A stretch of 64,000 bases of DNA, taken from NCBI GenBank assembly GCA_947650365.1, contig OX393553.1, forward strand, positions 65,227,611 through 65,291,610, written 5' to 3'. This document shows positions 8,126 through 54,599 of the stretch, piece by piece. How positions within the stretch are numbered: position 1 is the first letter of the stretch; every line of letters starts with the position of its first letter. Position numbers and translations under genes: made by a program. The notes beneath the pieces are model-generated. The model had not been told where the DNA came from, searched no databases, and saw nothing but the letters and a program-made list of their open reading frames with translations. Source of the stretch: Chamaelirium japonicum. Lineage: Eukaryota; Streptophyta; Magnoliopsida; Liliales; Melanthiaceae.

Positions 8126-8376
8126 TTCCCTCTGTATCCAAGCGGTCAAGGAACGATGGGCGTAGATCCCCTCCGAAGAAGATTACATTCATGGATTGGA
8201 CTCTATCGATCGAGTAGATTCTCGATCGAATTCAACATGAAGAGTTCCTCCGAAGGCCTAATCCTCTGCAGCCTGATACCAAGGTGACAGCTGATAAAAC
8301 AGTCTATTTTGATTTCCACCGCAGCCATGCCCATCCTACCGATCGATGCTATTGACTGAGATATCATCTTGAGGAT

Positions 8377-9060
8377 TTGCTACGAGAAGGCCATCTCCAA
8401 GAGTTCGTCAAATACGGACAAGATCAACGCCGACCTTCTGCAAAGGGAAAAGACGCTTGCTGGATCCATCAAATCTCTACCGATCAATTACCTATCACTG
8501 TGCGTGCCAACGTCTTTGGCATTCACGGATCATTGCACAATCAAACATTGATGGGGAAAGAAGTTGATCGGCAAGTGCGATGCATCTTCAACATCCGCTC
8601 TGTAGCGAACAAAGAAGACACCTGGATCGAGAAACCTGTCAAGGGCCTAACTTGGCCATCCATCATCGTCAATGACTCTGATCTTCAAGGAGTCTATACT
8701 CCACATCGGGATCCCCTGGTTCTGAAGCTCATCATCGACGGAAGCACTATCAATTGCATCCTCATCGACACCGGAAGCTCTATCGATATCATGTTCTCAA
8801 ACTGCTTCAAACGCCTGGGACATAAATACTCAAGTCTTGAAGTCATCCCAACGGTGATCACGGGCTTCAACGGGGAGCAGAGCATAACAATGGGGGAATC
8901 AAGATTCACCCTTGACCTCAGCCGAGAGACTCGAGTCTCGGTAAGATTCGCCATCGTCGAAGGAACATCCAACTACAACATCATCCTTGGTCGACTATTC
9001 CTCCATCAGATCAATGCTATCTCCTCCTCCTACCATCAACTCCACAAGTTTGCAACATGA
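8377..9060 (+). pseudogene. Gypsy protease region
   Basis: Within this 227-residue frame the aspartic protease signature reads LIIDGSTINCILIDTGSS, with the DTGS active site around 8770. Downstream, ITGFNGEQSITMG and YNIILGRLFL are the flap-side and ILG motifs typical of plant Ty3/gypsy proteases. It lies between gag and reverse transcriptase, as expected. Confidence 0.85.
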
Positions 9061-9199
9061 GAGGTTATTGTCTGCATTCGAGGAGATCAACAAACTAGGC
9101 GATCCTGCGAAACGGCCGCTGCCAAAACTGATCACAGAATAAATCTCGCTCCCCCCAAAAGACATAGAGATGAAGCTGGTCCATCTTCACGATAGCAAC

Positions 9200-10116
9200 C
9201 AAAGGAGATCCCACTGTCCGAACCCCCGTCGATAAAGTGGGAGGCTTCACCTTCAATCGAAGAAATCACTCCAATCAATATTGGCAGTGAAGATCTCCCT
9301 CGAGAAACCTTCATCGGTACCGGTCTCAGTGACACAGAAGCACGAGACATGGTATCCTTCCTTCAATCCAACATTAACGTCTTCGCCTGGTGTTTTGAAG
9401 ATATGCCTAGGATCAACCCAGATGACGCGTGTCACCGACTCGCAATCAAAGAAGGAGTGAAGCCCGTCAAGTAAAAACCATGCACGATCCGACCAGAATG
9501 ACAAGTTGCAGTCCAAGAGGAGATCAGTAAGCTACTAGCAGCAGGCTTCATTCGTGAAGTAGAGTACCCTACTTGGATCTCCAATATAGTCATTGTTCCA
9601 AAGAAGAACGGAAAAGTCAGAGTATGCATCAACTTCACCAACCTCAACAAGGCTTGTCCCAAAGACCCATTCCCCATGCCAAGGATAGATAGACTCATCG
9701 ATGCCACTGCTGGCCACGAGCTCCTATCTTTTATGGACGGATACTCTAGGTATAATCAAATTCTGCTATATCCGGACAATCGAGAGAAGACATGCTTTGT
9801 GACTGACCGAGGTCTTTACTGCTACAACGTAATGCCCTTCGGCCTCAAGAATGCTGGATCAACCTATCAAAGGCTAGTCATAAAGATGTTCGAAGATCAA
9901 ATCGGACGCAACGTCGAAGTTTATGTCGACAATCTCCTCACCAAAAGTTTCAATCGTGAAAGCCACCTCTCTGATCTAGCGAAAATATTTCAAATCCTCC
10001 GAAAATACCGTATGAATCTCAATCCGGCTAAATGTGCTTTCGGTGTTCAATCGGGTAAATTCCGGGGTCATCTTGTGACCAGGAGAAGTATCGAAGCCAA
10101 CCCCGACCAAATTTGA
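9200..10116 (+). pseudogene. Gypsy reverse transcriptase
   Basis: The region before 9670 contains the GKVRVCINFTNLNKACPKDPFPMP block and the later frame holds LLSFMDGYSRYNQI, FVTDRGLYCYNVMPFGLKNAGSTY and the VYVD palm core near 9920-9935. These are the standard reverse transcriptase motifs of Ty3/gypsy elements. The sequence between protease and polymerase (RETFIGTGLSDTEARDMVSF) is also typical of the Tat/Athila group. Confidence 0.88.
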
Positions 10117-10128
10117 GCTATCCTCGAT

Positions 10129-11100
10129 ATGCCATCGCCTACTAATCGGAAAGAAGTACAACACCTCACTGGAAGATTAGCTACCCTCAATCGATTCATC
10201 TCGAAATCTTTCGACAAGTGCAAATCGCTCTTCGACAAATTACGAAAGACGGATACCTCTGGATGGAGTCCAACTTGCGAACAAGCTTTTCAAGATGTCA
10301 AAAGTTATATCGTACGAGCTCCTATTTTAACAGCTCCGCTCCCAAAAGAAGATCTCTGGCTCTATCTTGCCATCACTGATCAAGCAATCAGTGCGGTCCT
10401 GGTCAGCAGAAGAGAAGGCATCGAACATCCGGTCTACTACATCAGTCATATACTTCTTCCGGCAGAGACTCGCTACTCAAAGATTGAGAAGGTCATACTA
10501 GCCTTGCTCACCGCATTACGACGTCTTCAACCCTATTTTATCTCCCACCCGATCACAGTGATCTCAGAGCACCCACTCAAAGACATCCTCGACAAGGCAA
10601 GTCGAGCAGGTCGAATGATCAAATGGGTGATCGAGATGAGTGCTCTCGGGATTCAATTTGAACCTTGCACTTCACTCAAAGGGCAGGCAGTTGCTGACTT
10701 CCTAGCTGACTTCGGAAGACCCCATAACAGAGATGAACCTCCATTCAATCTGATTACAAAGACCAATCCAAGCTTTGAGGCTCCTGCTACCTCGCCAGCT
10801 CAATGGAAACTCTATACTGATGGAGCTTTGAGCACGATCGGTTCGGGAATTAGGATAGTCTTAGTATCCCCCGAACTTGATCATCTTCAAAAGGTCATTC
10901 TCCTTGGATTCAATGCTACCAATAATGAAACCGAGTACGAGGCACTCATGTCCAGGCATAAAATGGCTGAATCCCTGGGGATAGATCGACTTATCGTCTA
11001 CAGCGAATCCCAGCTAATAATAAGGCAGATCAACGGGGAGTACACGACGCGAGAAGAGAGGATGCAACATTACTTAGTTCTGGTGCGACATCACCAATAA
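10129..11100 (+). pseudogene. Gypsy RNase H followed by a second, archaeal-type RNase H
   Basis: The first RNase H covers roughly 10330-10720 (YLAITDQAISAVLV, VYYISHIL, RYSKIEKVILAL). A linker ending VADFLADFG follows. A second RNase H begins near 10800 with WKLYTDGALSTIGSG and continues through NNETEYEALM and LIVYSESQLIIRQINGEY. Two RNase H domains in a row mark the Tat lineage. The frame is open for 323 residues. Confidence 0.85.
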
Positions 11101-11439
11101 CGTTTTGCTAGCACTGAATTCATTCAAGTCCCAAGAATAGAAAATCAAGTGGCAGATGCCCTGGCTAATGCTGCCTCGGTTCTTGGAGATTCACTCAGGA
11201 AAAGGCGAATACAAATTGACTATCAAGAATCACCCAAGATTACCCTCGAGCAGCAGGTCATCGCCACTACAGAAAGATCTGGGCGTCGAGAACAGCCAAC
11301 CTCCGATCATGTCACAACACTTGAACCCGAAGACTGGAGACAGCCAATCTTCAACTTCTTCAAACATGGCAGAATACCAGAAGATCCAATTCAAACCAGA
11401 AGACTTCAAAGGAAGCTTCCATGCTATAAGTTCTAAGGA

Positions 11440-12580
11440 GAAGATCTATATTTCAAATCGAACAACGGGATGTTGCTCAAATGCGTTGGTCCTTTACAAG
11501 CAAAGGAAATCTTAATCGATATCCATTCCGGAGCCTGCGGAAATCATTCGGGAGGAAGATCTCTTGAAGCCAAGATAAAGCTTCAAGGTTACTACTGGCC
11601 AACAATGGCAAGAGATGCTCATCAAGTGATTCAAAGATGCGAGCCTTGCCAGCGACACGCTCGAGCTATCCATCTCCTAGCAGACGAGCTCCATCAACTA
11701 ACAAGTCCATAGCCCTTCCATCAATGTGGGTTGGACTTCTTGGGACCTTTCCCACCAACACCAAGCAAGAAGAAGTATCTGCTGCTGGCCACAGATTACT
11801 TCACCAAGTGGGTTGAAGCGGTGCTACTCTTCCGAGAGACTGACGATGAAGTCATTAAGTTCATCAGACATAACATCTTCTCAAGATTTGGCACGCCACA
11901 AGTCTTAATTGCAGACAATGGAGCTCAATTCGATTTCGATAAGTTCCGGGGGTTCTGCCTAAACAATGGAATTAAATTTTTCTACTCAACACCAAGGTAC
12001 CCTCAGTGCAATGGTCAAGCCAAAGCCTCTAACAGAGCTATCCTTGGTCTACTCAAGAAGAAGCTCGATGACAAGAAAGGTTTATGGGAGCAAGTCCTAC
12101 CTGAAGTCTTGTGGGGTTATCGAACTACTCCGAGAAGATCAATTGGGTTCTCACCCTTTCGCCTAACCTATGGGTCAGAAGCAGTTCTCCCAACAAAAAC
12201 CATATCAAACACTTTGAAGACTAGAGCAATCGAAGAGGGAGTTAACGATGAGCTTCGAGTCAATGACCTTGATCTCTCTGAAGAGTTACGAGATCGAGCA
12301 ACCATTCGCGTTGCCAAATATCAATAGAGGATCAAACAAGCCTACGATCAGAAGGTCAGCAAAAGACAGTTCCCAATTGGCAGCCTGGTCCTCAGGACAG
12401 TCTTCTACAACACTAAAGAGCACTGTAGCAGAAAATTAGCTCCTATCTGGGAAGGACCCTACATCATCAAATCAATAGGAGGCAAAGGATCTTATTATCT
12501 GGTTTCGCTAGAAGGAGATAGGCTACCACGATCTTGGAATGCAGACATCTCAAAATGTTCTATCCTTGATGTAAACTCCA
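11440..12580 (+). pseudogene. Gypsy integrase
   Basis: The zinc-binding HHCC part is at about 11520-11700 (HSGACGNHSGGRSLEAKI, CEPCQRHA). The catalytic core follows in the 198-residue frame at 11731-12327: LDFLGPFP, ATDYFTKWVEA, FGTPQVLIADNGAQF, YPQCNGQAKASNRAIL, then the GYRTTPRRSIGFSPFRLTYG block. The C-terminal chromatin-side region (GPYIIKSIGGKGSYYL) extends to about 12580. Broken by several interruptions in the whole polyprotein. Confidence 0.87.
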
Positions 12581-27370: not shown

Positions 27371-27610
27371 TTGACTAAGAGGTGGACAGTAGCGAGGTCA
27401 GCAGACCCTCATGTCAAAATGTTTTATCTGGTTCACAGGGGATGGCATGTTGAAATAAATTAGAATTAAAACTAAGAGTAATTTGGTCCAAAGAAAAGTT
27501 AGGTTGCTAAACATTTGTTTTTCTGGAGTGGGCTCAGTTTAGACAATAGGACAAAGGTGATGCTTATTTTAGGCAAAACCTGTCTTTTTTTTTTTTTACC
27601 TGTAAATAAT

Positions 27611-28465
27611 GAGGTTTTTCCCAAAATGAGCACCAAGTTTGACCAATTACCCAAACTACTGCAGTTTTTTAAACCGTAACTTTTTTGCTCTCAGACACGT
27701 GACAAATAATTCACATGAGTCAGTTAGGATTTTTAGAGACCCTTTTGCCCTCTAGTCAAAAGGTAAAGAAACTGAACCTTTCTTCTTTCTTTTTCCCTCC
27801 GCGACCTTCCAAACCCCACCTGCGACCTCTGCAACCTCATCGTCGGCACTCTTCCTTGGCCGGAGATCGTCGGAAGATCACCGGAAGATCGTCGGAAGTC
27901 GTCGGAATCTTCATCCACGGTCGTGCAAAGCCTTTAAAGGTAAATCTTCGAACCCTAAACCACACTTTAACAAAAAAAATGGTTTTTTTTTACCCTAAAC
28001 CGTAAATCATGGGTGAAATTATGACAAACTAAATTTCATACCGTAAAATCTTGAATAAAATGGTTATTTGAGATTTCTTCGATTTGGTAACTACTTATGG
28101 CTTTCAAAAAATAGGTTTCAGATATTATAAAGATGTGAACAGGATATTGTTGATGATTAATTAATTAGGGTTTTTAATTTTCAAGGTTAAAATTAATTTT
28201 TTAAAAATTTATTGTATTTTTTGAAATGAGCTTTTACCCCATTATCAAACAATTTTGTTATATATTTCAGACCGCAAGTTATACTTGTATCGAACACAAA
28301 AATATTTTCTTAAAATTAAGATCTAATGCAGTAAATTTGTGTATCAAAATCAATGGGTTTATTGCAGTATTATTTGCGCTCGACACAAGTTCACTTGAGT
28401 TCGACGCATTTAAAGTTGTGTACTGTATGAGATGAACTTGCATAAGATCATCTCCAACACTTACT
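27611..28465 (+). repeat. MULE-A left terminal inverted repeat
   Basis: It pairs with 35680-36515. It contains a GC-richer block (about 27770-27940) ending GCCTTTAAAGGTAAAT, which looks like a 5' untranslated exon with a splice donor. The frame 27715-28005 and its mirror 36411-36103 are repeat shadows conserved only because the arms are alike. The arm ends with CATAAGATCATCTCCAACAC. Confidence 0.85.
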
Positions 28466-28822
28466 AAAATTTTTATTCAAATATGAGTAAAAACTCAATC
28501 TGATACAGAACACTCCAACCATTTACTCAAATTTGAGTTAAAACTTAATTTGGTATGAGTTTGAGTAAGGGTCGGAGCTGATTTTGGAGTTTTTACTTAG
28601 ATTTGAGTAAAAACTCATCGTTGGATGATAATTTTGTAAATATGGAGGTCCTTGGAGATGATCGTTAAGAATTTGGTATGGATTGAGTCTCCCCTGATTT
28701 GGTGTCAAATGAGTAAAACTCATTTTGGTATAAATATGAGTTTGACTTGAGCAGCTTTTGAGTATTTTTTACTCGGATTCAAATCTGAATCATGATTTGA
28801 ATATAGCTGGAGATGCCCTAAG
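28447..28822. mobile_element. MITE-like insert next to the left TIR of MULE-A
   Basis: The block begins GATCATCTCCAACA and ends GCTGGAGATGCCC, short inverted ends common in plant MITEs. Internally it repeats TGAGTAAAAACTCA-type palindromes. The right TIR holds only the first 25 bp or so of this insert. No coding sequence. Confidence 0.5.
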
Positions 28823-28913
28823 TTGTAGTAATTAGCATTTGGTGTAACAATGTTTTACTTTTTATACTTTTTTTATTCTTTTCTTAATATTATATGCAAT
28901 ATTATTTTTACAG

Positions 28914-31900
28914 ATGGGACGTGAAGGTCTTCGGAAGAGGCCACTGACACCATCCTCCAAACCACCTGTAAAAAGATCTAGAAAAATGGCATCTAGTTCA
29001 CCTACAATGAAATCTGAAAGGGAGTCATCCAAGTCACCTATCAAGAATTCTAACAAGAAGCCCCCCAAGTCACCTGCAAAGAAATTCGAAAAGGAGCCGG
29101 AAATCTCTACGAGAAAAAGAGGAAAGAAATCAAACGCTGGAAATGGTTCCAAAATAGAGAAAAGTATAAGCAATGCACCCGTTAATAGGTTGGAGTATAT
29201 GGCTCAACCATCAGCTAGGTGCAGTGTCTCATTCCTTGATGCTATCCTTGAGATGTTTAGAGATAATACTAATCGGATGGAATTGTTGAAGAAGTCTTGT
29301 TTTGGTCATATTTTAGATCTAAGGTATACCAAATATATGTTTCTTCCGATGCTTGCACATTACTTTTGGCAAAGACATGAGTCAGACTTTAAGTTTAATA
29401 TTAATGGTGTGATGATGAAATTCTCTCCCTTGGAGTTTACGTTGATCCTAGGGCTTAGGTATAGCGTTTCCACCCCTCCTCCAGACCTAGATACTGACAG
29501 CATTGGTGGTCCTTTGAAGAATAAATATTTTTATGGTAAGAAGGTGGTGGTAACCCAGAAATTATTGGTGGAAAAAATTAAAGAATGCAAAGATGATGTC
29601 GATGCAGTAAAGTTGGCATTGCTACTTCTATTAGAGAGTTACTTTCTTGGAGCCAATCCCGATGTTAGTATTCCTTTGATGCATTTAGAACTTGTGGATG
29701 ACTTGGACAAATTCAATAAATACCCATGGGGAAATGTGGCCTACAACAGTTTGAAGGCCGGTATGGAAGGTGCAATAAAGGGAGATAAGAGGCCAAAAAA
29801 ATATAATATCTTTGGTTGTGCATATGCACTTCAGGTATGACTACTTTTTAAACTAATTAGTATGTTATAGCATATTATCTATTATTTAATAATACTTGAT
29901 TATTTGGTTGCACATATATTTTGCAGGTGTGGATATTTGAACGGATCCCCCTTCTTGGAATGTTTTGCGCAAGAAAGCTGAGCACTGATACGAATCCTAG
30001 AATTCTTAGGTGGTGCGATTTGAAAAGTATCACCTACGATAGAGTATTCAAGTTTTTTAAAGAAAGAAAAGTAAGTTTAAAAAACTTAGTTTATATTTAT
30101 TTATATATAGATATATATATTAATAATATTCTAATTAATTAGTTGGGTTGATATATAGGTTCAAATTCTGGAAGAGTTAATTCCATCAAAAGTAGAAATG
30201 GAGGAGAATATCATCTGTCCCTTCTATGGCCGTGAATTATCTACTTCAACTGAAGGATCAATGGAAAGGGTTATGGAAGAGGAAGTCGATACGCCGAAAG
30301 AGGATAAGAATAAAGAGGATAAAATAATTGAGGACAATGCTGAAGAGAAAAAATCGAAAGGGGATAAAGGGATCCCTATATATTATTCTTTACCAACTTC
30401 ACAATATCCATTAGAAATAGTGGTAGAGGAACACCAAAAAAGAATCTCCTCACTTGAGGAGATTGTAGTGAAACAAACCCAGCTTATAAATGGACTCCAA
30501 CAAGAAATAAAAAAACTTAAAGGGCAACGCAAGGTTGAAATTTTTTCATCTCCACCTTCTTTCTCCAATGTGGATGACAAGGATTTTAATCCGATTGGTA
30601 CTTTGGATGATCTTATTGGTGCGGCTACTCAAGTGCATGTGGTGGAATACCAACAAGAGGTAAATTTTTATTCTTAAAGTGTATTTAGTTAATATGTATT
30701 AAAATTTTTTATTTGAATACTTACAAAATGATTGGTTGTATATTGTAGAGAACGGAGAGATTGGGACACGAGGAATCCCTCATTCAAGACTTTTGTATTA
30801 CACCACACCAAACTTATAGGGATGTAGAGGATGAGGGTGTGTCTCCTACTCAGATGGATTCAAATAGTAAGGGATATTCTCCTTCTCAGACGGATCCAAA
30901 AAAATGCGGTGATCCAGGTTTACATGAAGGGATTGAGAAATCCTTCGTTCGAGATCCAAACATAGTTGATGATCAATGTCCAAGTGATGTTTTGATGGTG
31001 CATTCCAAAAATGAAGAAAACAGAGGTTATGAAGAATCTATTGAGCCGGATCAAAATATAGTTGATGCATGGAGTGCAAGTAAAAAGGATGTTTCGACCC
31101 TACAAGAGAGCCAAACAAATAAAAAGGAACAGGTATAATAAAAATTCAACTACTAAATTTATTTTTTTATAATTATGATTTAATATTTTCTTTTATTTTT
31201 CTTGTAGGAGAAAGCTGCACCGGCAAGACGCGAATCACAGCGGATGAGAAGGCCAGGTCCACATTTATGTTCTCCATATACAGACCCATTAAATAGAAAG
31301 AAACTTTTGGCACAGTTGGAAGACGAGGTAGAGATCAAACCTGTCAAGTGGATGAAAAGACTTAACCATGAGGAGAGAAAATTTTGTATTGACTTCATGG
31401 ATGATAACCGTAGAGAATTGTATGTATTATGGTAGTACAATTAAATATAAATTAGAATGTCTTTTACAATTCATGATATAATTTCTATTAACTTCATGAT
31501 GTATGTTTTAATGTAGGGATAACATTATTATTGACGGGATTAATGTGAATCCTTTTTGGATTAAAGAACTCTATTCTAATGAAGGATGGGCACAAAGTGA
31601 AGTGAGTTATGCATACCATTTAATTATGATATAAGTTATCTCTAATATTATAATTTTTTTACTTATAATTATATTAATTTGATTACAGCACATTGATGCC
31701 TATATGTCTCTCCTGGAGACACGTTTTTAAGACATTTTGAGCACTTTCACAAGGTTAAGAAGATTGACATCTTTTTTGGCAGGACGTACTTATGGGTATG
31801 TTCGCTAATTCTAGTTTGATATATATTTTTTTATAAACTGCTAAACAAATAATTTCTAATAGGTTGTTTGTTGATTGTGACAGAATTATATGATATTGGC

Positions 31901-32453
31901 TTTCAATGAATTTAAGAGTTATATTAGAAAGGAACCTCAAGGAACAGATTTGAAAGTGCTAGCGAAGAGTTTTAAGTGGTCTGAGTCTTTGAAGCAGATT
32001 ATGTTAGGAAACGGGGATCGAGTCAAAAATGATGATGGTGTATTTTATCCGATATGGAAGTGTGCACATGCTATAATCCCTGTCAATTATAATAACATGC
32101 ATTGGTATCTTGTGAACATGTACATGCAAGAGAAGAAGTTGCTTATTATTGATTCATTATATCAATCCTCTCATATCGAGTATAAGGAAGATATTGAAAA
32201 GATCTTGCATATCTTACCTATTGTACTCTATAGTTGTGGACATGATGCTGCTTTCGATGGCGACAAATGGACAGCGTACAAGGCGATGAAGACCACAATA
32301 CCAAGGCAACTAAATGGATATGACTGTGGGATTTGGGTTATGTCCTTCGCTAACTACTTCACCTGCAATAAAGAATTGGACTTTAAGGATGCCGACATGT
32401 GTGCTTTTCGGCGGCGGATTGTATATCAACTTTTGATAAAATATGTGGAATGA
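28914..32453 (+). pseudogene. MULE-borne Ulp1-type cysteine protease gene with DUF1985-like N-terminal domain
   Basis: Exons inferred from splice sites and phase: 28914-29834, 29927-30070, 30159-30659, 30749-31132, 31208-31419, 31517-31601, about 31689-31797, 31884-32453, giving about 970 residues. The ATG directly follows an acceptor-like TTTTTACAG, so a 5' untranslated exon probably lies in the TIR. Residues 1-90 are Lys/Ser-rich. A DUF1985-like globular region covers about 95-300. Middle exons are acidic with a coiled coil. The last exon is a peptidase C48 domain with His in NMHWYLV, Asp in LLIIDSLY, Gln in RQLNG and Cys in YDCG, so the catalytic set is complete. Such proteases remove SUMO-like modifiers. 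The small exon near 31689-31797 seems to hold one frameshift (LLETRF against HFEHFHKVKK), so the copy may be inactive. Confidence 0.78.
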
Positions 32454-32604
32454 TGTAACTTGACATGTGTACTTTATGGTGGCATTTTGTAACTTGAAAT
32501 GAATGGTCTATGGTGTTTTGTAATATGAATATTTTTATGTCTGTCTTATTTTGAGCACCAATGAGTGTTTGTTACCGAGGTGGAATATTGAATGTTATAC
32601 CCAA

Positions 32605-32775
32605 TAGACAAATATGTACTGCGTCCAACGCAAGTATGGTTTGTATCGAATGCAATATTTTGGCTAGAATCATCATCCCTGCAATTGAGCACAAATATGT
32701 ACTGCGTCCAACGCAAGTATGGTTTGTATCGAATGCAATATTTTGGCTAGAATCATCATCACTGCAATTGAACGC
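32605..32775 (+). repeat. Two tandem copies of an 81-bp motif (third copy at 34320-34410)
   Basis: The phrase ATGTACTGCGTCCAACGCAA, followed by TATCGAATGCAATATTTTGGC, is repeated at 32614 and 32695, and again with changes at 34324. The copies surround the GRF gene. Related GTATCGAACACAA text occurs in the TIRs. Confidence 0.8.
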
Positions 32776-33576
32776 AAACTATACTTGCGTACGATGCAAT
32801 TTTTTAACAGTTCTTATCACTGCTCCTTGCGTTCACAATAGTTCTCAATAATACTCAACAGTTCTATAAAAACCTATCATCCCTGTCCTTTCTCTGTGAT
32901 TTTCTTTATAGAGGAGTAGTCGAACGACCCCTTCTCTGCAATTTCCATTGGAGAGGACGACGCGGAGGGGTAGAACACGGATCCGACTTCTTCTCCTCCG
33001 TGGCCACACAGATCAGACTTCTTCTCATCGAAGGTATGATCGCATCCCCCTGGATTGATCACTTCAGAAAGGGAAGGGGGCAGCTCCTTTCTAGGTCCTA
33101 AACCCTTCATAAGTCCCCCCTTTCTTCTTCTAGGTATTTGCCATTTGTTTTACTTGCAAATGGTTTAGTCGCTCCCTTAGATCTAACTAGATCATATGCT
33201 TATTCTCCATTCTTAAAGATTTAAAAAAAAAAACTAATTTTTTCTTGTTTAAATATATTGACTGCTACAGAGGGATCCTATAAGATTTTTTTAAAAAAAC
33301 TAATTTCTTATTGTTTAACGAGATCAGCCCATTTATCCGTTGACTGTTACAGAGGGATCCTATAAGATTTTTTTTTAAAGAGATGGTGTCATCTAAATTG
33401 TAAGATCCAAATATGTATCATGCATGTAGGTATTTCTTTATGTGATTTTTTATGTGGTTTTTTCTGTACCAAATATGTATCATCCAAATATGTAAGATCC
33501 AAATATGGTTTTTTTAAAGAAATGGTGCCATCTTGATTGTCATTTTTATGTGGTTTTTTTTTAAACAGACTCAAAT

Positions 33577-34017
33577 ATGAGCTCAACGATATATCCGAAT
33601 TTCACATGTCCATGTGGTGTTGGTTTTTGTAAGATAAAGACATCCCGCACATCAAAAAATCCTGGAAGAATGTTTTATACATGTCCACTACCAGAGGTAC
33701 ATTATAATTTACTTTGAATAATATATATGCCCTTGGAATAAGATATAGATTTGTATTACCCATTTATTGTTAATACATGATTGCAGGGCAATCGATGTCA
33801 GTTTTTTATGTGGTGTGATGAAATTCAAAAGATGATTATTCATAAATGCACGTGCGAGGAGACGATACACCGCTTGGAGGCTGAGGTCGAGGGGTTGAAG
33901 GGAAAACTCCATGAGTGTCATATGATGATGAAACAAATGCGACAAAAAATGCTTGATGGAGCGATGGATAGTTTGTCGTTACTTCAAGATTTATCTTCGT
34001 TAGAGTTGACTGATTAA
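33577..34017 (+). CDS. GRF-type zinc-finger protein carried by MULE-A (116 aa, two exons)
   Basis: Exon 1 is 33577-33696 and exon 2 is 33787-34017, joined in phase 0 by a GT-AG intron; the combined frame is open. The N-terminus reads FTCPCGVGFCKIKTSRTSKN, then PGRMFYTCPLPEG, then CQFFMWCDE. This matches the GRF zinc finger (C-x-C-G, C, C pattern with the GRxF core and FFxWxD). The C-terminal half (about residues 55-110) is heptad-like and probably a coiled coil. GRF fingers bind single-stranded nucleic acids in some proteins. The ATG at 33577 gives the full finger. No damage is visible. It lies between the protease and transposase genes inside the MULE. Host origin or transposon function is unknown. 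Confidence 0.72.
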
Positions 34018-34695
34018 AAATATTGTAATATTTTTCTGAATTTGGGTATGGGGTGCCATAAATAGATCCCCCTTGTTTTAGTTCAAAAATAATATTATTT
34101 TTAAAAAATTTTAAGCCACACTTGTATAACAGCATAGTAAGGTGATTGCAATATAATTTGTTTAATAATTTTTAACTTTGATTACTTAAATAATTTATTT
34201 AATACCTGTCCAAATTCTCAAATACTGTTGCCTGTGATTGTTCAAATTTCTTATGCCCCTTATTTCATTTCTCATGCTTCTTGCAATTAGCTCGATTCAT
34301 CATTCCTGTAATTGAGCACAAAGATGGACTGCGTCGAACCCAAGTATGGCTTGTATCGAATGCAATATTTTAACTAGAATCATCATCACTGTAATTGAAC
34401 ACAAACTATACTTGCGTACGACGCAATTTCTTGTTTTCTGCAAAAGGTGTAATTGCGTTCAATTGCAAAAGGTGTCATTGCTTGTTTTCAACGCAAGTCC
34501 TATTATAGCATGCAGTATTAACAGTATCCAATCGCAATAGTCATATTAAAGATATCGATTATCTAAGTCATTGTATCTAATTACAAGTAACCAAAATTGC
34601 ACAACCATCCAATTACAAGAAACCAGAATTTCAAAAGTCATTGTATCCAACTACAAGTCAACCAAAATAAGATCTCTCAATAAAGTAAAATATAG

Positions 34696-35397
34696 TTATC
34701 CTTGCTCGATTGGTTTCTTACAAGCTCTTCTATTGTGCCCAGTCTGTTTGCATCTGCCACACTTTACGGTCTTCCGTTCTTCACCTTGTGATAATATTCT
34801 TTTTTTCTTTGGCCTCCCTAGTGGAGTCTTTCCCTTAGGTGGTAGCAATTGATCATCTTTAACTATGTTATCTGAAATCAGCCACTGATTTTTATCAGAA
34901 ACTGGGTAGATGGACTATTCATACGTTGAATCATTCAAATATTCTTCTGAATCTTCTATCTTAGCAATTGAAGAAAAGGGAAAAGCATGAGACAGAGAAA
35001 CTTTGGGAAAAACTTTTTCTTTTTCGTCTATCTTCCTCTTACAAGTAGATATTGGAATAGAAACATATTTGGAGCATTTACGGTTTCTTGTTACTAGTAA
35101 TGGGATATTGGACATCACATTGCGTATATTGTGGGCAATGAACGCGCATGCATCATCATTATCCACAATCTTTATAGGCGGACAAGGGATCGTACTTGGA
35201 TACAAAGCTTTAAGAGAAATGTCATATTCTTCGACGTCAGACTTTGTTATCTGATAGATTTTCTGAATAAGTTGGTCATAGTCGCTTGATAAAGATAAAA
35301 GAAAAGTTTTGAATATTCCCCCCTGGTGCTGGTATTTATTTTTGACTTGAATGAATTCTCTATCATAGATACATAAAATCGGTAATAGTGAATCCAT
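34696..35397 (-). pseudogene. MULE-A transposase gene lacking its catalytic core
   Basis: Starting at MDSLLPILCIYDREFIQVKN (start chosen because MULE-B has the same beginning), the N-terminal domain runs about 160 residues. It then passes directly into the C-terminal tail of MULE transposases: SIYPVSDKNQWLISDNIV, LGRPKKKRILSQGEE and the zinc knuckle CGRCKQTGHNRRAC. The DDE and SWIM domains present in MULE-B are missing, so about 2 kb were deleted. The two parts are in one frame except for a single TAG at 34915-34917. A catalytic role is impossible; a DNA-binding remnant is conceivable. Confidence 0.82.
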
Positions 35398-35679
35398 GCC
35401 TGAAAATGATAAGCGAATGAAACTGGCATAAGGCACAATGTATTAATTTTTGTAATAGTTAAAGCAAGTCCTAACATAAATAGTTGAGCTGTATATAAGT
35501 ATCTATTTTGAATGTAGCATCCAACGCATGCATGCTTATGTTATAAAGAAGATGTTCAAAAATAATGATCTTGTATCCAACACAATATTATTGAGTTGAT
35601 TCTTGCATTCACTATTTCAAAATCTTTATCATGAATCTCAAATCATCTCCACACATACGCAAAGTTATAAAAAAATTTC

Positions 35680-36515
35680 AGTAAGTGCTGGAGATGATCT
35701 TATGTAAGCCCATCTCATGCAGTACACAACTTTAAATGCGTCGAACTCAAGTGAACTTGTGTCGAGCGCAAATAATACTACAATAGACCCATTGATTTTG
35801 TATACACAAATTTACTGCATTAGATCTTAATTTTATGAAAATATTTTTGTATTCGATGCAAGTATGACTTGCAGTCTGAAACATATAACAAAATTGTTTG
35901 ATAATGGGGTGAAAGCTAATTTTGAAAATTACAATAAATTTTTAAAAATTAATTTTAATCTTGAAAATTAAAAGCCCTAATATCATGTTCACATCTTTAT
36001 AATATCTGAAACCTATTTTTTGAAAGCCCTAAGTAGTTACCAAATCGAATAAACCTCAAATAACCATTTTATTCAAGATTTTAGGGTATGGAATTTAATT
36101 TGTCATAATTTCACCCATGATTTAGGGTTTAGGGTAAAAAAAACAAATTTTCTTGTTAAATCGTGGTTTAGGGTTCGAAGATTTATCTTTAAAGGCTTTG
36201 CACTACCTTGGATGAAGATTCCGACGACTTCCGGCGATCTTCCGGTGATCTTCCGACGATCTCCGGCCAAGGAAGAGTGCCGACGATGAGGTTGCTCAGG
36301 TCGGAGGTGGGGTTTGGGAGGTCGCGGAGGGAAGAAGAAAGAAGAAAGGTTCAGTTTCTTTACCTTTTGACTAGAGGGCAAAAGGGTCTCTAAAATTTCT
36401 AAATGCCTCATGTGAATTATTTGTCACGTGTCTGAGAGCAAAAAAGTTACGGTTTAGAAAACTGCAGTAGTTTGGATAATTGGTCAAACTGGGTGCTCCT
36501 TTTGGGAAAAACCTC
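35680..36515 (-). repeat. MULE-A right terminal inverted repeat
   Basis: Complement of 27611-28465 with scattered changes. It holds the same untranslated-exon-like block and would place the same promoter upstream of the minus-strand transposase gene as the left arm does for the protease gene. It is followed by the duplication gtaaataat. Confidence 0.88.
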
Positions 36516-36524
36516 GTAAATAAT

Positions 36525-37860: not shown

Positions 37861-40800
37861 AGGTGGTGAGGTGCTCTTTACTGTGCTAGCAGCAGACAAG
37901 TTGGAGCAAGCTTAAGTAATGTTCAAACTTCTCCTTAGTAATCAGCTTCGTAAGAAAATCTAAGACATTCTTATCTGTGTGAACCTTCTATACCTCGATC
38001 TCACCATCATCTAGCCATTCCCTAATCCTGTGGTACCTGATGTCGATGTGCTTCGTTCTTGCAAGGAAGACCAGATTCTTCGCCAAACAAATCGCACTCT
38101 GACTATCGCACTGTATCGTAACTGAGTTCTAACTCAGTCCCAATTCGCTAGCTAGGCCCTTCAACTAGATAGCCTCCTTTACAGCTTCTATTAGAGCCAT
38201 ATATTCTGCCTCAGTAATGGAGAGCGCCATCACAGACTGTAGCATAGACCTCCAACAGACCGGTTCTCCTCCACACGTGAACAAGTATCCTATGATAGAC
38301 CTTCTCCTGTCAAGATCTATTGCATAGTCTTAATCATAATATCTTATGATATTGATCTCTTCCTTCTGCTTGGCAAATTAGATTTATTTCTCTACAATGC
38401 CCTTCAAATACCTCAATATCCACTTGACCGCTTGCCAATGGACCTTTTCCAGATTCGACATGAATCTGGACACGACGCTCACCGCTTGTGCCAGATCCGA
38501 CCTCGTGCAAACTATCACATACATAAGACATCCTACTGCACTGGCATACGGTGTCTTCTACATCATCTGGACCTCCTTCTCCGTAGTAGGACACTACCTC
38601 TTGCTCAGAACAAAGTGCGAAGCCAAAGGAGTAGAGGTTGGCTTTGCATTCTTCATCTCAAACTTCTCAAGAACCTTTTGGATATAGATTCCTTGAGACA
38701 TCCAAAGCTTTCTGGCTTTTCTGTCCCTCCTGATCTCCATGCCAAGAATCTTCCTTGCATTCTCGTGATCCTTCATCTCGAACTCTATGCTCAGTATCTT
38801 CTTGAGTTCGACTATCTTGCTCTCGTCATGACATGCGATGAGCATATCGTCGACATAAAGCATCAATGTCACAGCCTCTCTATCCTCAAAGGTGCGAGTG
38901 TAGACGCAACAATCATACATCCCCCTCGAGTAATCGATCTGTATCATGAACGAATCGAAGCGCTTGTACCACTGCCTTGGTGACTGTTTGAGTCCGTAAA
39001 TCGACTTCTTCAGTCTGTACATGTGGTTCTTCTTGCCTTCTTCAATGAATCCATCCAAATGTGACATATAGATCTCCTCATCGAGATCGCTGTGAAGAAA
39101 AGCCGTCTTCATATCCATAGCACTATATTATGATTAGTAACCTGAGCCAATAGTAGTCAAATAGAGATATGTTTGACTACGAGAGAGAAGATCTCTTTAT
39201 AGTCAATTCCTTCTCGCTGAGCGAACCCCTTTTGCAACCAAACGTGCCTTAAACTTGGGGTCTTCATTCTGCATACACTTCTACTTCTTGAGAACCCACC
39301 TGAAACTTATGATATTCTTTCCCTTGGGCCTCGGAACTAACTCCCAAATGGAGTTCTTGTGAAGAATGCTTATCTCATACTTCATCGCCTTCATCTAGCC
39401 TTGTCCCTCACTGCTCGCTGCAGCCTCATCATAGCTTGCTAGATCATCTTCACTGATTATGAAGGTATAACAAACATCATCATCCGAATCGTATCTTTGA
39501 GGTATTTTGATGGACCTTTTCGACTTCCTCAAAGCTGTGTCTGTAGGCTCCACTTGAGCCTATACTGGAGCCTCCACCTGAGTCTCCACCGGTGTCTTCA
39601 TCTGCTATTGCTCATCCACATCACCCTCGGATGTGCCAACTGCTTCATCTATATCTGTCAAGATAACTGGAATCTCTGTAGCAGTCTTCTCTCCCTGACT
39701 GGATTTTACCGCACCGATCTTCGCCTCTACCATAGGCATGGTCTTCTTGTTAAAGATGACATCTCTGCTAACAATCTTCTTTCGATTCTTCGGATCCCAC
39801 AACTTGAAGCCCTTCACACCTCATTCAAAGCCCAGGAACAGGTACTCCTATGACTTTGGCTTCAATTTGTTCCTCTCATCGCTCGGGATGAGAGCGAACA
39901 TCTTGTATCCGAACACCTTTATCGCGGAAAGATCCACATATTTCCAGACCATACCTCTTCGGCACACTTAAATTCCAGTACCTTCGAGGGAGATGGATTA
40001 ACCAAATAGCGCGCATGGTTAACCGACTCTGCCCAAAAGAACTCAGGCAGATTTGTATATACTCACATGCACCTCTCTTTCTCCATGAGAGTCATATTTA
40101 TCCTTTTTGCAGTGCTATTCTACTGAGTGGTCTTCTTCATTGTGAAGTGCCTGATAATGCCCTCCTGCCAATAGAACTCGATGAACCTTCCATCCTTGTA
40201 TTCACCTTCGTTGTCACTCCTCAAGTACTTAATCTTCCTCTCCGTCAGATTTTTTACCTCAGCTTTCCAAGTTTTGAACTTATCAAACACCTCAGACTTC
40301 TCGCGCATGAAGTAAACCCAAACCTTACAAGAGTAATAATCCAGGAACGTGACATAGTACCGAGCTCCACCATATGAACGAGTTGAAGCCGGTCCCCAAA
40401 TATCGAAGTGAATATAGTCAAGAGCGCCCTTCGCCCTCTTCTGAATAGAAGCTAACTTGAACGAAACCTTGGATTGCTTACCCTTGATGCATGATCAACA
40501 CAACTCCAATTTGTACTCGCCTACACCTTTCAACAACTTCCTTCTGTGTAGTTCCTGCTGCCCCTTTTCGTTCATGTAGCCCAGCCTATGATGCCATAGC
40601 AAAGCCGTATCTTGCTCTGAACTGACGTTTGTGCAGACTACTACTCTACCCAAGACTATACTCCAAGAAAATCTATATAGATTGTTTGCCTGCCTCTCTT
40701 CTCTTATCACCACAAGTGATCCCTTAGTAACATTAATCTTCCCATCTCCCGATAAGTAGGCGTACCCGTTTGCATCCAAAGTACCCAAGGAAATAAAGTT

Positions 40801-41423
40801 CTTCTTGAGAGTAGGAACATGCCTTACGCTCCTGAGCAAACGAATCGTACTATTGTTCATCTTCAGTCTAACTGTTCCCATGCCTACCACCGTGCAGGAG
40901 GCGTCGTTCCCAATAAGAACTTTGCTGTAATTTTTCTCTTCATAAGTGTCGAGCCAATCCCTGTTAGCACACATATCGAACGTACAACCACTATCAAGGA
41001 TCCACTGAGATGAGGATTTACCTGAGGATACGGAGAGCAACTCACCATCGTCGTTCTACGAAATGACACCCGCTGTGTCAGAGTTCTCCGTCTTCTTCCC
41101 TTCTCCTTCGTCTCGTCTTGCAACTTGAAGCAATGTCTCTTGATGTGGCCTTTCTTTCTGCAGTGAAAGCACTTTAGATTCTTCGATCGTCCCTTGGACA
41201 TTAAACGACTCTTATCCCAGCTCTGGTTTCTAGCACGCCTGTCCTTCGATCGGCCTCAGTATTCATGAGAGCTCTTTACAACAAGTCATGCATGCTTCGT
41301 ATCTTCTCCCATATTCTTTCATATCTTTGCATGGGAGATGATCGTTTGGACTACCTCCTCAAACTTGAGAGTCTTCTTGCCAAACATCAGGGTGGTCTTG
41401 ACGTGCTTGTAGGACAATGAAAG
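37860..41423 (-). mobile_element. Ty1/copia retrotransposon, minus strand, 5' part missing, broken
   Basis: On the minus strand the order is as follows. End of gag: VKTTLMFGKKTLKFEEVV near 41400, then the CCHC knuckle CFHCRKKGHIKRHC near 41165. Protease with ILDSGCTFDMC and GAG-pre-integrase with LWHHRLGYMNEKGQQEL (41040-40495). Integrase: about 40480-39900. Reverse transcriptase: MDMKTAFLHSDLDEEIYM, YGLKQSPRQWYKRFD and LYVDDMLIA (39118-38594). RNase H with ITEAEYMALIEA (38230-37880). This is the classic copia order with integrase before reverse transcriptase. It has several breaks and lacks its 5' LTR, cut at 41424 by the junction with another LTR element. Confidence 0.88.
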
Positions 41424-50034: not shown

Positions 50035-50269
50035 GAAAATAAAAAGGTTTTTACCGAAATGGCCACCAACTCTCAACTATTGTTGAGAATGGACCCCATT
50101 GAGAAATCTGAACGAAAATGGCCTTTAGCACGTGTGAAACAGCTAGCATGGTGACACTAAACTGGTGAAAAGACATTTTGATCCTTACCTTTGTAAAAAC
50201 CCATTGTGGCTAGGTTTCTTACCCATTTCTGATAAATCCAGATGTTTGCTTGGTTTTCGTCTCGATCAA

Positions 50270-50480
50270 CCGTTGTTGAGGCTTCGTCGGACCGCCTCTA
50301 TTTCAACCAGTGTCCATTTCAAGCATCGTTGAGGCTTCGTCGGACCGCCTCCATTTCAACCGGCGTCCATTTCAATCGTCGTTAAAGCTTTGTCAGAAAC
50401 CACCCCATCTTATTTGTCGAAAATCGCCTCCATTTCAACCATCATTGAGGCTTTGTCGGAAATCATCGCATCTTATTTGT
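50270..50480 (+). repeat. Short tandem repeats in the leader region of MULE-B
   Basis: A unit of about 58-62 bp (GAGGCTTCGTCGGACCGCCT, then CCATTTCAACC) recurs three to four times, with later copies diverged. It lies where MULE-A has its untranslated exon. Confidence 0.7.
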
Positions 50481-50869
50481 TGCCAGAGGAGGCTCGTGGT
50501 CGGAGAGAGGTCGCCGACGGTACACAGAAGGCTTGGAGTTCTTCGACGAATTAAGTTTGCCGAGGTATGTTCTATAAACCCAAATCTTAGCCCTATGTTT
50601 TTATTTAATTTAGTTTTTTCTAATTATCCCACATTGTGATCTGGATATTTTTTTAGAACTAAATTATGCCTTAATTTCTCGTAAGAGGTACAACTCAGTT
50701 CTTATACTAAGAAACTTTTACTCCCCAAATTGTTTTGTTCATATTTCACTCCCCAAATAGGCCTAAATTTTTCTAAATTTTTTCATCAAATTTTTTCATC
50801 AATTTTAACATGCCTTAATTTCTTTTAAGAGGTATAGCTCAGTTCTCTTACTAAGAAATTTGAGAAAAA

Positions 50870-52709
50870 AATTTTCTTACTTGAGGAGAAATATGCAAAG
50901 ATGATCTCCTCAATGGAGGAGAAATATGAGAGGAATATCTCCTCAATTGAGGAGAGACATACGGAGGAGTTCTCTTTACTTAGAGAATAATACAATCAAC
51001 ACTGCATCAGTGTATACAATCAGGTAAACCAACAATAATTCCTATATTTAATTATTTATATACTTTTTGTATATATATATTTATTGACTTTATGTTTATA
51101 TTGAACGGTATGTGCAGAAGGAGAAGGAGAATGAAGACAGATTCTCTTTATTTGATTAGGATTTGGGCATCGAGAAGAAGAATGAGGAAAAGAATAAAGG
51201 CGAGGTAGAGGGTGATAGACAAGGAAAGGAAGGAGAAGCGAAGGCAAAGGATATTGAAGAGGAGGGAGCCGAGGTGGAGGGAAAAGAGGAGAATGAGAAT
51301 AAGAAGAGGGAAACTAAGGAGGTGAAGGGAACGGATCACAAGAAAAGTATCATTGATGTAGATATGCTTTCGATCAGCAATCCATTAAAAGTTTTTACAT
51401 CACAGCGGATAAAGAAACTGGGTCCGCTAATATGTTCTCCATATACCACCAACAAAACGAAAACTCTCCGTAAGGAAATAGAATAAGAGGAGATCATGGG
51501 CGTGGATAAATATATCAAAAGGCTATCGTCTGAAGAGCAAGAGTCAATGATAGCTTTTCATGATGGAAACAGAAATAAATTATAACTTATTCACTATATA
51601 ATCCATTTTGGAAGGATAACACATTTTGTCTCTTAATAATTTATGGGATTATTGTCACTATAGACCATATTTTTAATTGATGGGATTGTTGTAATCCTTT
51701 AATTAATTAACAAACTATGTGAGAGAATATCATGGGTGATGTGCGAGGTGAGTGTATATCAATTATCATTTTTGATATCTCGATATATCATATTCAATAT
51801 TATAAAACTATATATTATTGCAGCATATTGATACTTATATGTACTTGCTTAAGGAGCGCATATTAAGGAATTAGAGCCCCGGTACATTCACCATTTCTAT
51901 AGCTTGGACATATTATTGGGTATGTCTCTGATTCTTAATAGTATTTGTATAAAAAAATTTCTTAGAATTCAATAAATATTTAATATTTATTTATGAATTT
52001 AAAATATTATGTCAAAGTTGCTATTAGAGTTGGAAGGACTATGTACAAAGCCATGATGGAATCCCAAATTATACTAAGCTTATACATTCTTTCATCACAT
52101 TATATAGGTGGTTGAAAGGATTCAGGAGTAATGTAAAAGATAAGAAAGAGGATTTCAAACCGATATGGCGGTGTTCATACATTATCATCCCTATCAATAA
52201 AGAAAACCTCCATTGGTACCTTGGAATTCTCCATATAAAAGATCAGAAATTATTTTTGTTAGACTCTCTTTACAATGACCATGTTTCTAAGTATAGTAGA
52301 AAACTCCAATCATTTTTAGAAATTCTACCAATGTTTTTATATTTTTTGGGAGATGAAAATGCTTAGTTAGGTGCAAAATGGACGGCCAAAAATAATAAAG
52401 ATGACCTTCCTAGGCAAATAAATGGGTAAGTTTATATTACTAAATACTGAAAAATTATTAGTCATTTTATATAACTAACAATTTTATATGTTATATAGGT
52501 ATGATTGTGGTGTTTTTCTTATAACTTTTGCAAACTATTACAACAGCAACCAGAAGCCGGATTTCAGTCAGGTATAATATTAAGTTGTTTACAACGTAGT
52601 TATATTTCAATAATTACACTTATAATCTAATTGTTTATATTTGCAGGTTGATATGACATCTTTTCGAAGGAGAATTGCGTGTCAAATCTTGCCTAAATAT
52701 ATGGACTGA
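50870..52709 (+). pseudogene. MULE-B Ulp1-type protease gene, reduced
   Basis: The DUF1985-like N-terminal part of MULE-A is absent. What remains: a coiled-coil-like piece (EEKYAKMISSMEEKYERNIS near 50885-50990), a charged exon ending TSQRIKKLGPLICSPYTTN (51163-51486; MULE-A has SQRMRRPGPHLCSPYTD), an HIDTYMYLLKERI exon near 51824, and the peptidase core at 52100-52709. The core keeps His (LHWYLG), Asp (LLDSLYND), Gln (LPRQING) and Cys (YDCGVF), the last after a GT-AG intron at 52426-52499, and ends QILPKYMD. Several stops lie between (for example after GDENA and after RKEIE), so it is a pseudogene in spite of the complete catalytic set. Confidence 0.75.
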
Positions 52710-52884
52710 AGAGTTGACAAGACTGAAGGACTGACAAGGCTTTCTAATTGTGTAGAGTTTTATAATTGTAAATTTAATTTATATGAAGTTATCTAATTAT
52801 AAACTTGAGTAATATTGTTATATGGGATAATGTGAAGTTATGTAAACTTAAGTAATCTTGTTATGTGAAGTTATATGAAATCAT

Positions 52885-53785
52885 GTGGAGTTAATATTTC
52901 GTCTCGACAAATACACAGTCATGGCTTACCCGAGACTGGCCAACTCAAAGCCTGTGAAAAATTAGATAAAAATGGGACGAAATATAATATTTCGTCAATG
53001 TTTCATCTCAACAGATACACAGCCATGGCTTACCCGAGACTAACCAACTTTATCCTGTAAAAATTAGACAAAAGTAGGACGAAATATAATATTTCATTAA
53101 TGTTTCGTCTCGACAGATACACAGTCATGAATTACCCGAGACTGGTCAACTTCAGCCTGTGAAAAATTAGACGAAAGTGGGATGGAAGATAATATTTCAT
53201 CAATGTTTCGTCTTGACAAATACTCATGGCTTACCCGAGACTGGCCAACTTCAGTCTATGAATTAGACAAAAGTGGAAGGAAAGATAATATTTTGTCAAT
53301 ATTTCGTCTCGACAAATATAATCATGGCTTACCCGAGACTGGCCAACTTCGATCTGTGAAAAATTAGATGAAATTGAGATGAAATATAATATTTCGTCAA
53401 TGTTTCGTCTCAACAAATACACAGTCATGGGTTACCCGAGACTGGCCAACTTCATCCTGTGAAAAATTAGACAAAAGTGGGACGAAAGATAATATTTCGT
53501 CAATGTTTGTTCTCGACAAATACACAGTCATGGATTACCCGAGACTGGCCAACTTCTCCCTATGAAAAATTAGATGAAAGTAGAAGAAAATATAATATTT
53601 TGTCAATGTTTCAACTCGATAAATACACAGTCATGGCTTACTCGAGACTGGCCAACGTCATCCTTTGAAAAATTAGACGAAAGTGGGACAAAATATAATA
53701 TTTCGTCAATGTTTTGTCTCGATAAATGCACAGTCATGGCTTACCTGATTCTGCTAACTTCGGCTGTGAAAAATTAGACAAAAAT
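52885..53785 (+). repeat. Satellite-like array of about 101-bp units between the MULE-B genes
   Basis: Nine units align on TTTCGTCTCGACAAATACAC, then AGTCATGGCTTACCCGAGAC (starts near 52894, 53000, 53103, 53206, 53304, 53403, 53505, 53607 and 53710). Units vary by about 10% and in length. The 61-67-residue frames reported by simple translation are the repeat itself. Confidence 0.93.
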
Positions 53786-54599
53786 TAATAGGCTCTTGAA
53801 ATTGGGTACTAAAACATGTAAAACCTATAGAGATTTATAGCCATATAAAACCTGTAGACATACAAAATTATGGATCATAGCACGGATTTAACTAGATCTC
53901 CAAAAATGTCATTATAATACTTCACTCGAAGATGATCTCCAAAAATATCATTACAATATTTCACTCGAAGCTGATTTTGAATATGATTTCTAGAAATGCG
54001 ATTACAATACTTCACTCTAAAATTTTTGTTCAAACATGCACCATAGCCACACTTAATACTTTACAAAAGTTAGATACTAAATTAGAGTTCTCCTTACATG
54101 TCATTACAATAACCTTTATTTATATTACAATAAATATAAATATAAATGCTATCATAGCCAAAAGTACTCCTAACATGCAAAACCTACACTCCCGAGTGGT
54201 AAACTTATGAGCGAGAGGTACAAAAGGGGCGCAATATGAAGGTGCAGGATACTTGCTATCCAAAGAGATATCACGATTACTATTAGGAGGGTGATAATTA
54301 CTTTGGAACTTAGATAAGTGATCTTCATAAATGATACAAAGATCCTTCATAGCCATTAACTTATCGTTGACACTCCTCCCAATTGTAGTAAATGTCAGGT
54401 CTTCTGTCCACAAATACCATATAATACTTATTTGCCATAAGCTCGATACCTGTACAATCATATCATTCAATAAGTTTATAAGATGTTCAATAAATAATTA
54501 AATATATAAATGAATAAGAAGAATAGTTATTCATAATATGTATTGAACAAGTAAAAAAACATGATACCTTTACTCTACAATAACAGAAAAATTATATGA

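Follow-up and report, generated by a model that had tools for sequence, protein, structure and literature searches.

In a 64,000-nucleotide stretch of the Chamaelirium japonicum genome (contig OX393553.1, positions 65,227,611 to 65,291,610; hereafter the window), the segment 27611..36515 is a Mutator-like element (MULE) with inverted ends and a perfect 9-bp duplication. This window copy is a non-autonomous member of a multi-copy MuDR-type MULE family that carries a DUF1985-Ulp1 gene and a GRF zinc-finger gene beside a transposase gene. The GRF gene lies in a small module that also occurs in MULEs with very different transposases and that was most likely exchanged between these lineages.

A MULE family with two accessory genes

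The original prediction for this DNA, made by a model from the letters alone, had described terminal repeats of about 850 bp with a perfect 9-bp duplication, and had placed a DUF1985/Ulp1 gene, a GRF gene and a gutted transposase in one element. The repeats were recovered at 27611-28489 and 35656-36515 with 92.5% identity (805 of 870 aligned positions; 25 gap columns) and with GTAAATAAT on both sides, and the gene content was confirmed by Pfam matches and by comparison with a related copy, L010. Two features of Mutator elements, long terminal inverted repeats (TIRs) and a 9-bp target-site duplication, are present, the duplication being perfect in the window copy and in six relatives; in L010, the eighth locus with both ends, it agrees after a one-base shift. 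The MULE-type transposase domain was found at the family level, in a frame of L018 that matches PF10551 (2.6e-22), PF03108 (5.2e-12) and SWIM (4.8e-7) and shows the portion deleted from the window copy. Relative to L010, ~2.24 kb of transposase is absent from the window copy. The N-terminal part, scanned in L010, is PB1-like at a score under the Pfam cut-off, and the C-terminal part carries what we take to be a zinc knuckle.

The DUF1985-Ulp1 gene of the window is not intact either, having a 1-bp frameshift in exon 7. Both this frameshift and the transposase deletion are found in the nearest sister, L009, which has different 9-bp flanking DNA. Because the damage is common to the two copies and the flanking DNA differs, it is likely that both transposed once the damage was in place; transposase, and intact DUF1985-Ulp1 protein as well, would have been supplied in trans by other copies. 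We rejected the divergence of the two arms as a measure of the age of the window insertion: the canonical right arms of L009, L010 and L016 are closer to the right arm of the window copy than to its left arm, which places the arm difference before the insertion.

Searches covered a genome of 1.52 Gb, and only part of the candidates were scored, so that all family counts are lower bounds. The left TIR had at least 40 matches (40 of 151 candidates scored), and 20 family loci were fetched, giving 21 copies with the window. Clustering of the rows of five genome searches that were judged to belong to the window family, with the ends of one 11.3-kb element counted as two, yielded at least 48 match clusters. 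DUF1985 or Ulp1 was present in 39 clusters, and GRF in 34 of these 39; reciprocally, GRF was present in 39 of the 48, and 34 of these contained DUF1985 or Ulp1. Within the window family, the genome-wide search agrees with the earlier suggestion that the two genes travel together. The GRF frame, which had been called undamaged, spans 116 open codons in the window, and 16 of the 19 copies (window included, among 21) in which both GRF exons are complete have it open; a unique element, or a GRF gene absent from relatives and decaying, had been named as grounds for giving up the idea, and neither was found. Gene loss in the family is not one-sided, with GRF missing from L013 and its exon 1 only partial in L018, and with portions of the Ulp1 gene lost from L010 and L016. 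An inverted TIR pair ~11.3 kb apart at C4:86281310-86292583, with no GRF, DUF1985 or Ulp1 inside among the matches listed, may represent a family member whose contents differ.

Transposase sequence, Ulp1 gene and GRF gene stand side by side in L018, L019, L024 and other copies. Two transposase-deficient groups (L020, L022, L023 and L028; L025 and L026) have the GRF part inverted and kept both accessory genes. The second arm of these groups resembles the left arm, all six loci have perfect and mutually different 9-bp duplications, and the four loci of the first group are 0.15-0.33% diverged. These duplications speak for mobilisation of copies that lack a full transposase. The two genes had been regarded as cargo; the element is indeed a gene-carrying MULE, but cargo is too narrow a term, given that transposase sequence and both genes adjoin in family members and that DUF1985 with Ulp1 makes up the KIU/VANC type of MULE gene. 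Freshly captured cargo was rejected, since both genes lie beside transposase sequence in relatives and the GRF module is common to other MULEs. Like Pack-MULEs, the window element is a MULE with non-transposase genes; unlike in Pack-MULEs, these genes are complete, family-wide and found in transposase-bearing copies, and do not look like captured fragments.

A DUF1985-Ulp1 gene of the KIU/VANC type

The DUF1985-Ulp1 coding sequence (CDS) is intact in nine, broken in nine and incomplete in three of the 21 copies, and the product has 974 amino acids in eight of the nine intact relatives and 975 in one. The combination of DUF1985 with Ulp1 is that of the KIU/VANC type of MULE gene, VANC being a protein that acts against silencing in Arabidopsis, and the C48/Ulp1 gene runs opposite to the mudrA-type transposase gene, as in KIU/Kaonashi elements. 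DUF287, a feature of VANC proteins, had no match in exons 1, 3 and 8 of 8, the exons scanned. A protein search with the 974-residue product returned two plant DUF1985 proteins, the named relatives being only from Cuscuta and Ficus. In an alignment, the Ulp1 exon of the window has counterparts of the His, Asp, Gln and Cys of SENP2 that we take to be its active site.

In the available parts of the respective sources, VANC proteins, known from the VANDALs of Arabidopsis, carry DUF1985, bind to short recurrent motifs of non-coding DNA and demethylate their own family (PMC5735166, PMC10398659), a review counts KIUs, the Ulp1-carrying MULE genes, as VANC relatives (PMC13317346), and a nomenclature paper lists KIUs as relatives of deconjugating proteases and considers it unlikely that KIUs act towards SUMO (PMC6117577). 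Work in grapevine reports ULP in TIR, non-TIR and Jittery-like MULEs and gene capture by MULEs (PMC2528002, in part). Like the Kaonashi MULEs with their KIU genes (in Arabidopsis, and as ULP-MULEs in melon, rice and grapevine), the window family is multi-copy and has an Ulp1 (C48) gene opposite to the transposase gene. The KI-MULEs are non-TIR, whereas the window family combines long TIRs with a GRF gene and an array of palindromes; the available parts of the KI-MULE sources carry no mention of GRF. Because of the long TIRs, we file the family as a ULP-MULE and not as a Kaonashi element, and ULP-MULEs with TIRs have likewise been reported in melon and grapevine (PMC2528002, in part). With the VANDALs (VANA/VANB/VANC), it shares a DUF1985 protein, a three-gene layout and a family-specific motif in non-coding repeats (PMC5735166 and PMC10398659, in part); it differs in that its third gene is GRF and that anti-silencing by it is only putative.

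ULP-MULEs are already known, and the GRF gene in a MULE is the new part, as far as the literature covered. Ulp1, DUF1985 and GRF are absent from the main text of a Mutator element survey (PMC6446971), and no literature joining Mutator-like elements with the GRF zinc finger was among the matches listed, the original Kaonashi and melon papers lying outside the coverage.

The GRF module in other MULE lineages

The GRF gene of the window is an intact two-exon gene whose zinc finger scores 40.9 bits against a PF06839 gathering score of 25.9. Its nearest relatives in the PDB are the GRF fingers of NEIL3 (phmmer matches to NEIL3 chains). Like the fingers of NEIL3 and APE2 it lies over the Pfam cut-off; unlike them, it forms a stand-alone, transposon-borne protein of 116 amino acids, for which a protein search gave zero matches.

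At least 99 GRF matches were obtained with PF06839 in the genome (150 of 244 candidates scored). Eight GRF loci of other classes (L029-L036) were fetched, six with ~4.5 kb on each side and two more, the stretches reaching ~1-5 kb either side of GRF. In seven of these eight, tblastn detected a MULE transposase that lies 2-4 kb off, is convergent to GRF and is 22-31% identical to that of the window family; in L032, no MULE transposase was detected by tblastn within the fetched stretch. The Ulp1 gene was found by tblastn in none of the eight stretches, so that to the question of whether Ulp1 and GRF always go together the answer is largely yes within the family and, as far as these stretches reach, no outside it. 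No match to the window TIR was found in L029-L036.

L031 has FAR1 DNA-binding and MULE domains (PF03101 and PF10551), and L029 and L033 group with it by similarity, L033 at 29-31% transposase identity. L031 and L034, the only two loci from which the co-mobility of GRF and transposase in the L031 family is read, lie on different chromosomes and are alike by 94.8% in the transposase and by 92-95% in the GRF region. L035 and L036 match L033 at 96-99% over GRF and transposase, and inverted repeats of 461 bp (96.5%) enclose the GRF and transposase unit at L035:58-6075. L029 and L030 share transposase and GRF, the GRF there being a more distant one-exon gene.

The DNA match of the window element to L031, L033 and L034 is confined to 33536-34128, at 83-86% identity, and that to L032 is a 34-bp match inside a GRF exon. 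Across families the exons of the module are 87-91% identical, versus 72-81% for the intron and 74-82% for the flanks, and the 351-nucleotide GRF CDS is free of indels across the window, L033 and L034. L031/L034 and L033/L035/L036 resemble the window family in this ~590-bp module, placed convergently with a MULE transposase; they differ in that no Ulp1 or DUF1985 was found in the fetched stretches and in that their transposases are 23-25% identical to that of the window family (23-29% among L018, L031 and L033). Because the GRF sequences are so similar and their carriers so different, GRF either moved between transposons or was acquired several times from a single source.

The second of these possibilities, that several MULE families independently captured the module from one host GRF gene, is in our judgement unlikely. 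Gene capture by MULEs is known (PMC2528002, in part) and the module retains an intron, which indicates that it was taken up as DNA; however, no single-copy host source stands out among the 40 of 92 candidates scored, and independent captures would need nearly identical start and end bases. The genome search with the module returned at least 40 matches (40 of 92 candidates scored, 52 unscored) in two repeated tiers, one of 17 matches at 91-100% and one of 23 at 86-87%. Exchange between MULE lineages is the reading that these comparisons most favour.

DUF1985 matches in the genome numbered at least 150 (150 of 465 candidates scored), and listed GRF matches within 12 kb were counted as neighbours. 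Such a neighbour was present for 24 of the 29 DUF1985 frames of the window family (330 and 320 amino acids), and three further ones belonged to presumed family copies with shorter DUF1985 frames (156, 267 and 185 amino acids). The five largest other DUF1985 classes had no listed GRF match within 12 kb, with 0 of 36 (318 amino acids), 0 of 18 (295), 0 of 9 (335), 0 of 6 (309) and 0 of 6 (306). Since these classes are without a listed GRF neighbour, GRF was added to the DUF1985 family of the window, as far as the matches listed show. The 318-residue class, with 36 matches, most at 55.2 bits and many with an Ulp1 match ~2.1-2.3 kb away, is likely a very young and abundant DUF1985-Ulp1 family with no GRF among the matches listed. 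One DUF1985 match at C1:68893934 (213-residue frame) has a GRF match 10.3 kb away (186-residue frame, C1:68904232), possibly a second DUF1985-GRF pairing or a chance occurrence.

Selection on the accessory genes

Nei-Gojobori ratios of non-synonymous to synonymous change (dN/dS) against the window copy were 0.45-0.96 for the Ulp1 gene (18 relatives) and 0.15-0.78 for GRF (17 relatives, with L009 undefined), two of the 20 relatives being skipped in each case. Pooled counts gave 0.62 for the Ulp1 gene and 0.44 for GRF for changes in one class, and 0.83 and 0.36, respectively, for changes common to classes. The introns of the family have a strong transition bias; under the intron mutation spectrum, the within-family omega was 1.07 for DUF1985-Ulp1 (p 0.72) and 0.69 for GRF (p 0.16), neither significantly below 1, and within-family dN/dS was for this reason rejected as proof of function. 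Between families, the omega of GRF was 0.24-0.43 (three pairs of the window, L033 and L034, each at three kappa settings), and 0.42-0.50 under the intron mutation spectrum (p 0.003-0.025; three overlapping, non-independent pairs). These ratios indicate that GRF is under purifying selection between families. The dN/dS check that the original prediction had proposed was near neutral within the family, whereas selection on GRF became visible between families.

It could be argued that the Ulp1 and GRF genes are decaying passengers without present function, spread only via transposase in trans. The Ulp1 omega close to 1 within the family, an Ulp1 CDS intact in only 9 of 21 copies, and the existence of copies with lost Ulp1 parts (L010, L016) or lost GRF (L013) would all be expected of passengers. 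We nevertheless regard this as quite improbable: stops are depleted in the DUF1985-Ulp1 gene (0.35 of expected, p 0.0015), GRF has an omega of 0.24-0.50 between families with exons better conserved than intron and flanks, and the two genes are still paired in 34 of 39 clusters.

A palindrome array and the proposed working of the element

The palindrome TTGYRTNNNAYRCAA occurs eight times in the 64-kb window, versus 0.04 expected, and all eight sites lie in non-coding DNA of the element. The 20 relatives contain 117 sites; 91,712 bp of coding DNA and 31,993 bp of flanks are free of the motif. A segment of ~180 bp that is absent from the window copy contains one or two further sites in all 17 copies having it; as these copies are related, this amounts to about two independent sites, none of which was used in writing the pattern. 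An initial one-sided version of the pattern, searched with one mismatch allowed, gave 14 matches, one of them at 31065 in coding DNA and another at 19477, beyond the element. A family-specific motif repeated in non-coding DNA, as known from the VANDAL/VANC system, is present at the level of sequence. Exact sites were absent from the eight other GRF loci, which makes GRF not likely as the reader of the palindrome.

We propose, at a probability that we place just under an even chance, that the family combines in one transposon a VANC/KIU-like gene with an exchangeable GRF helper gene, the window copy being non-autonomous and the palindromes being the predicted sites of action. By analogy with VANC/KIU proteins, the DUF1985-Ulp1 protein would read the palindromes in the non-coding DNA of the element and counter silencing, and binding there would lift DNA methylation. 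Since its closest solved relatives are NEIL3 chains, the GRF protein would be expected to bind single-stranded DNA and to assist transposition at single-stranded intermediates.

Several observations weigh against this proposal, besides the within-family omega values given above. The window had already been inspected when the palindrome pattern was drawn up, and the Arabidopsis VANC21 motif is not enriched (3 found versus 2.39 expected), so that only an analogous motif is claimed. The TIRs of VANDALs are degenerate (PMC10398659, in part), whereas those of the window family are long. No fetched copy was seen to have all three genes intact, most fetched pieces stopping before the full transposase. 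Moreover, two of the eight exact palindromes lie in the TIRs, and a palindrome suggests a dimer, as might be expected if the palindromes were sites of the element's transposase or of another DNA-binding protein and DUF1985-Ulp1 acted elsewhere, for example as a protease that cleaves SUMO- or NEDD8-like conjugates. The presumed active-site residues kept in the Ulp1 exon of the window are consistent with such an activity, as is the listing of KIUs with deconjugating proteases (PMC6117577, in part). We consider this alternative rather unlikely, as six of the eight palindromes lie in the interior of the element, around GRF and on the upstream side of the transposase, and the two TIR sites stand ~650-675 bp away from the ends; non-coding repeats of this sort are what VANC-type proteins target (PMC5735166, in part).

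If palindrome reading by DUF1985-Ulp1 is accepted, the family, with its DUF1985-Ulp1 gene and family-specific palindrome, represents a testable anti-silencing system outside the Arabidopsis VANDALs, and the question arises of why a long-TIR MULE would carry an anti-silencing gene. MULEs are commonly pictured as a transposase plus captured gene pieces. That the same small gene, with its frame under selection, occurs on three transposase lineages (23-29% identical) suggests that MULEs have a helper function in common and exchange it. We tentatively suggest, while giving it somewhat less than even chances, that GRF is an unrecognised, exchangeable MULE accessory cassette (0.6 kb, selected, in at least three transposase lineages), joined here with a VANC/KIU-type anti-silencing gene and a palindromic operator array; its slot, which in a second MULE of the window holds an RNase H1-type domain, may serve generally as a port for helpers that bind nucleic acids.

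Table 1. Features of the MULE in the window.
Feature	Position	Strand	Basis
Left copy of 9-bp target-site duplication GTAAATAAT	27602..27610	.	Perfect match to right copy
Left TIR	27611..28489	+	Arm alignment
Palindrome TTGYRTNNNAYRCAA in left TIR	28285..28299	.	Exact pattern search
DUF1985-Ulp1 gene, 8 coding exons	28914..32453	+	Exon model read from sequence, tested on 20 relatives
DUF1985-Ulp1 exons	28914-29834, 29927-30070, 30159-30659, 30749-31132, 31208-31419, 31517-31601, 31689-31795, 31884-32453	+	Read from sequence, borders borne out by relatives
DUF1985 domain (PF09331), exon 1	29376..29753	+	E 4.2e-16, over Pfam cut-off
Ulp1 / Peptidase_C48 C-terminal domain, last exon	31965..32420	+	E 5.2e-18, over Pfam cut-off
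83-bp non-coding tandem repeat carrying palindrome sites	32608..32778	.	Repeat search
Palindrome site	32641..32655	.	Exact pattern search
Palindrome site	32724..32738	.	Exact pattern search
Palindrome site	32785..32799	.	Exact pattern search
GRF module common to other MULE families	33536..34128	+	DNA matches, ~590 bp
GRF gene coding exon 1, GRF zinc finger PF06839	33577..33696	+	E 2.3e-10
GRF gene coding exon 2 to stop	33787..34017	+	Helical tail presumed from sequence
Palindrome site	34351..34365	.	Exact pattern search
Palindrome site	34412..34426	.	Exact pattern search
Transposase remnant, N-terminal part joined to C-terminal zinc-knuckle part (presumed label), one in-frame stop	34701..35430	-	Comparison with L010
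Transposase deletion junction	34927-34929	-	3-bp microhomology
Palindrome site upstream of transposase	35571..35585	.	Exact pattern search
Right TIR	35656..36515	-	Arm alignment
Palindrome site in right TIR	35847..35861	.	Exact pattern search
Right copy of 9-bp target-site duplication GTAAATAAT	36516..36524	.	Perfect match to left copy

Other elements in the window

A second, diverged and broken MULE with 48-bp perfect inverted ends occupies positions 50045-58064. It has an Ulp1 domain on the + strand (30-43% amino acid identity to the first family, in three pieces) and a MULE transposase on the - strand (45-56%, also in three pieces). Between the two, in the slot held by GRF in the first element, lies an RNase H1 N-terminal (Cauli_VI) domain at 54313-54426 on the - strand (E 1.4e-8), with in-frame stops. 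Tandem repeats of 103 bp (8.8 units, 52893-53783) contain a palindrome of their own, of the GACGAAATATAATATTTCGTC type, in three near-exact copies, and TTTCGTC occurs 15 times in this element versus 5 times across the remaining window. Elsewhere in the window, retrotransposon polyprotein frames that by-eye judgement of the translations suggests to be Gypsy-type-like and Copia-type-like are located at 7112-12327 (+) and 38594-41055 (-), respectively.

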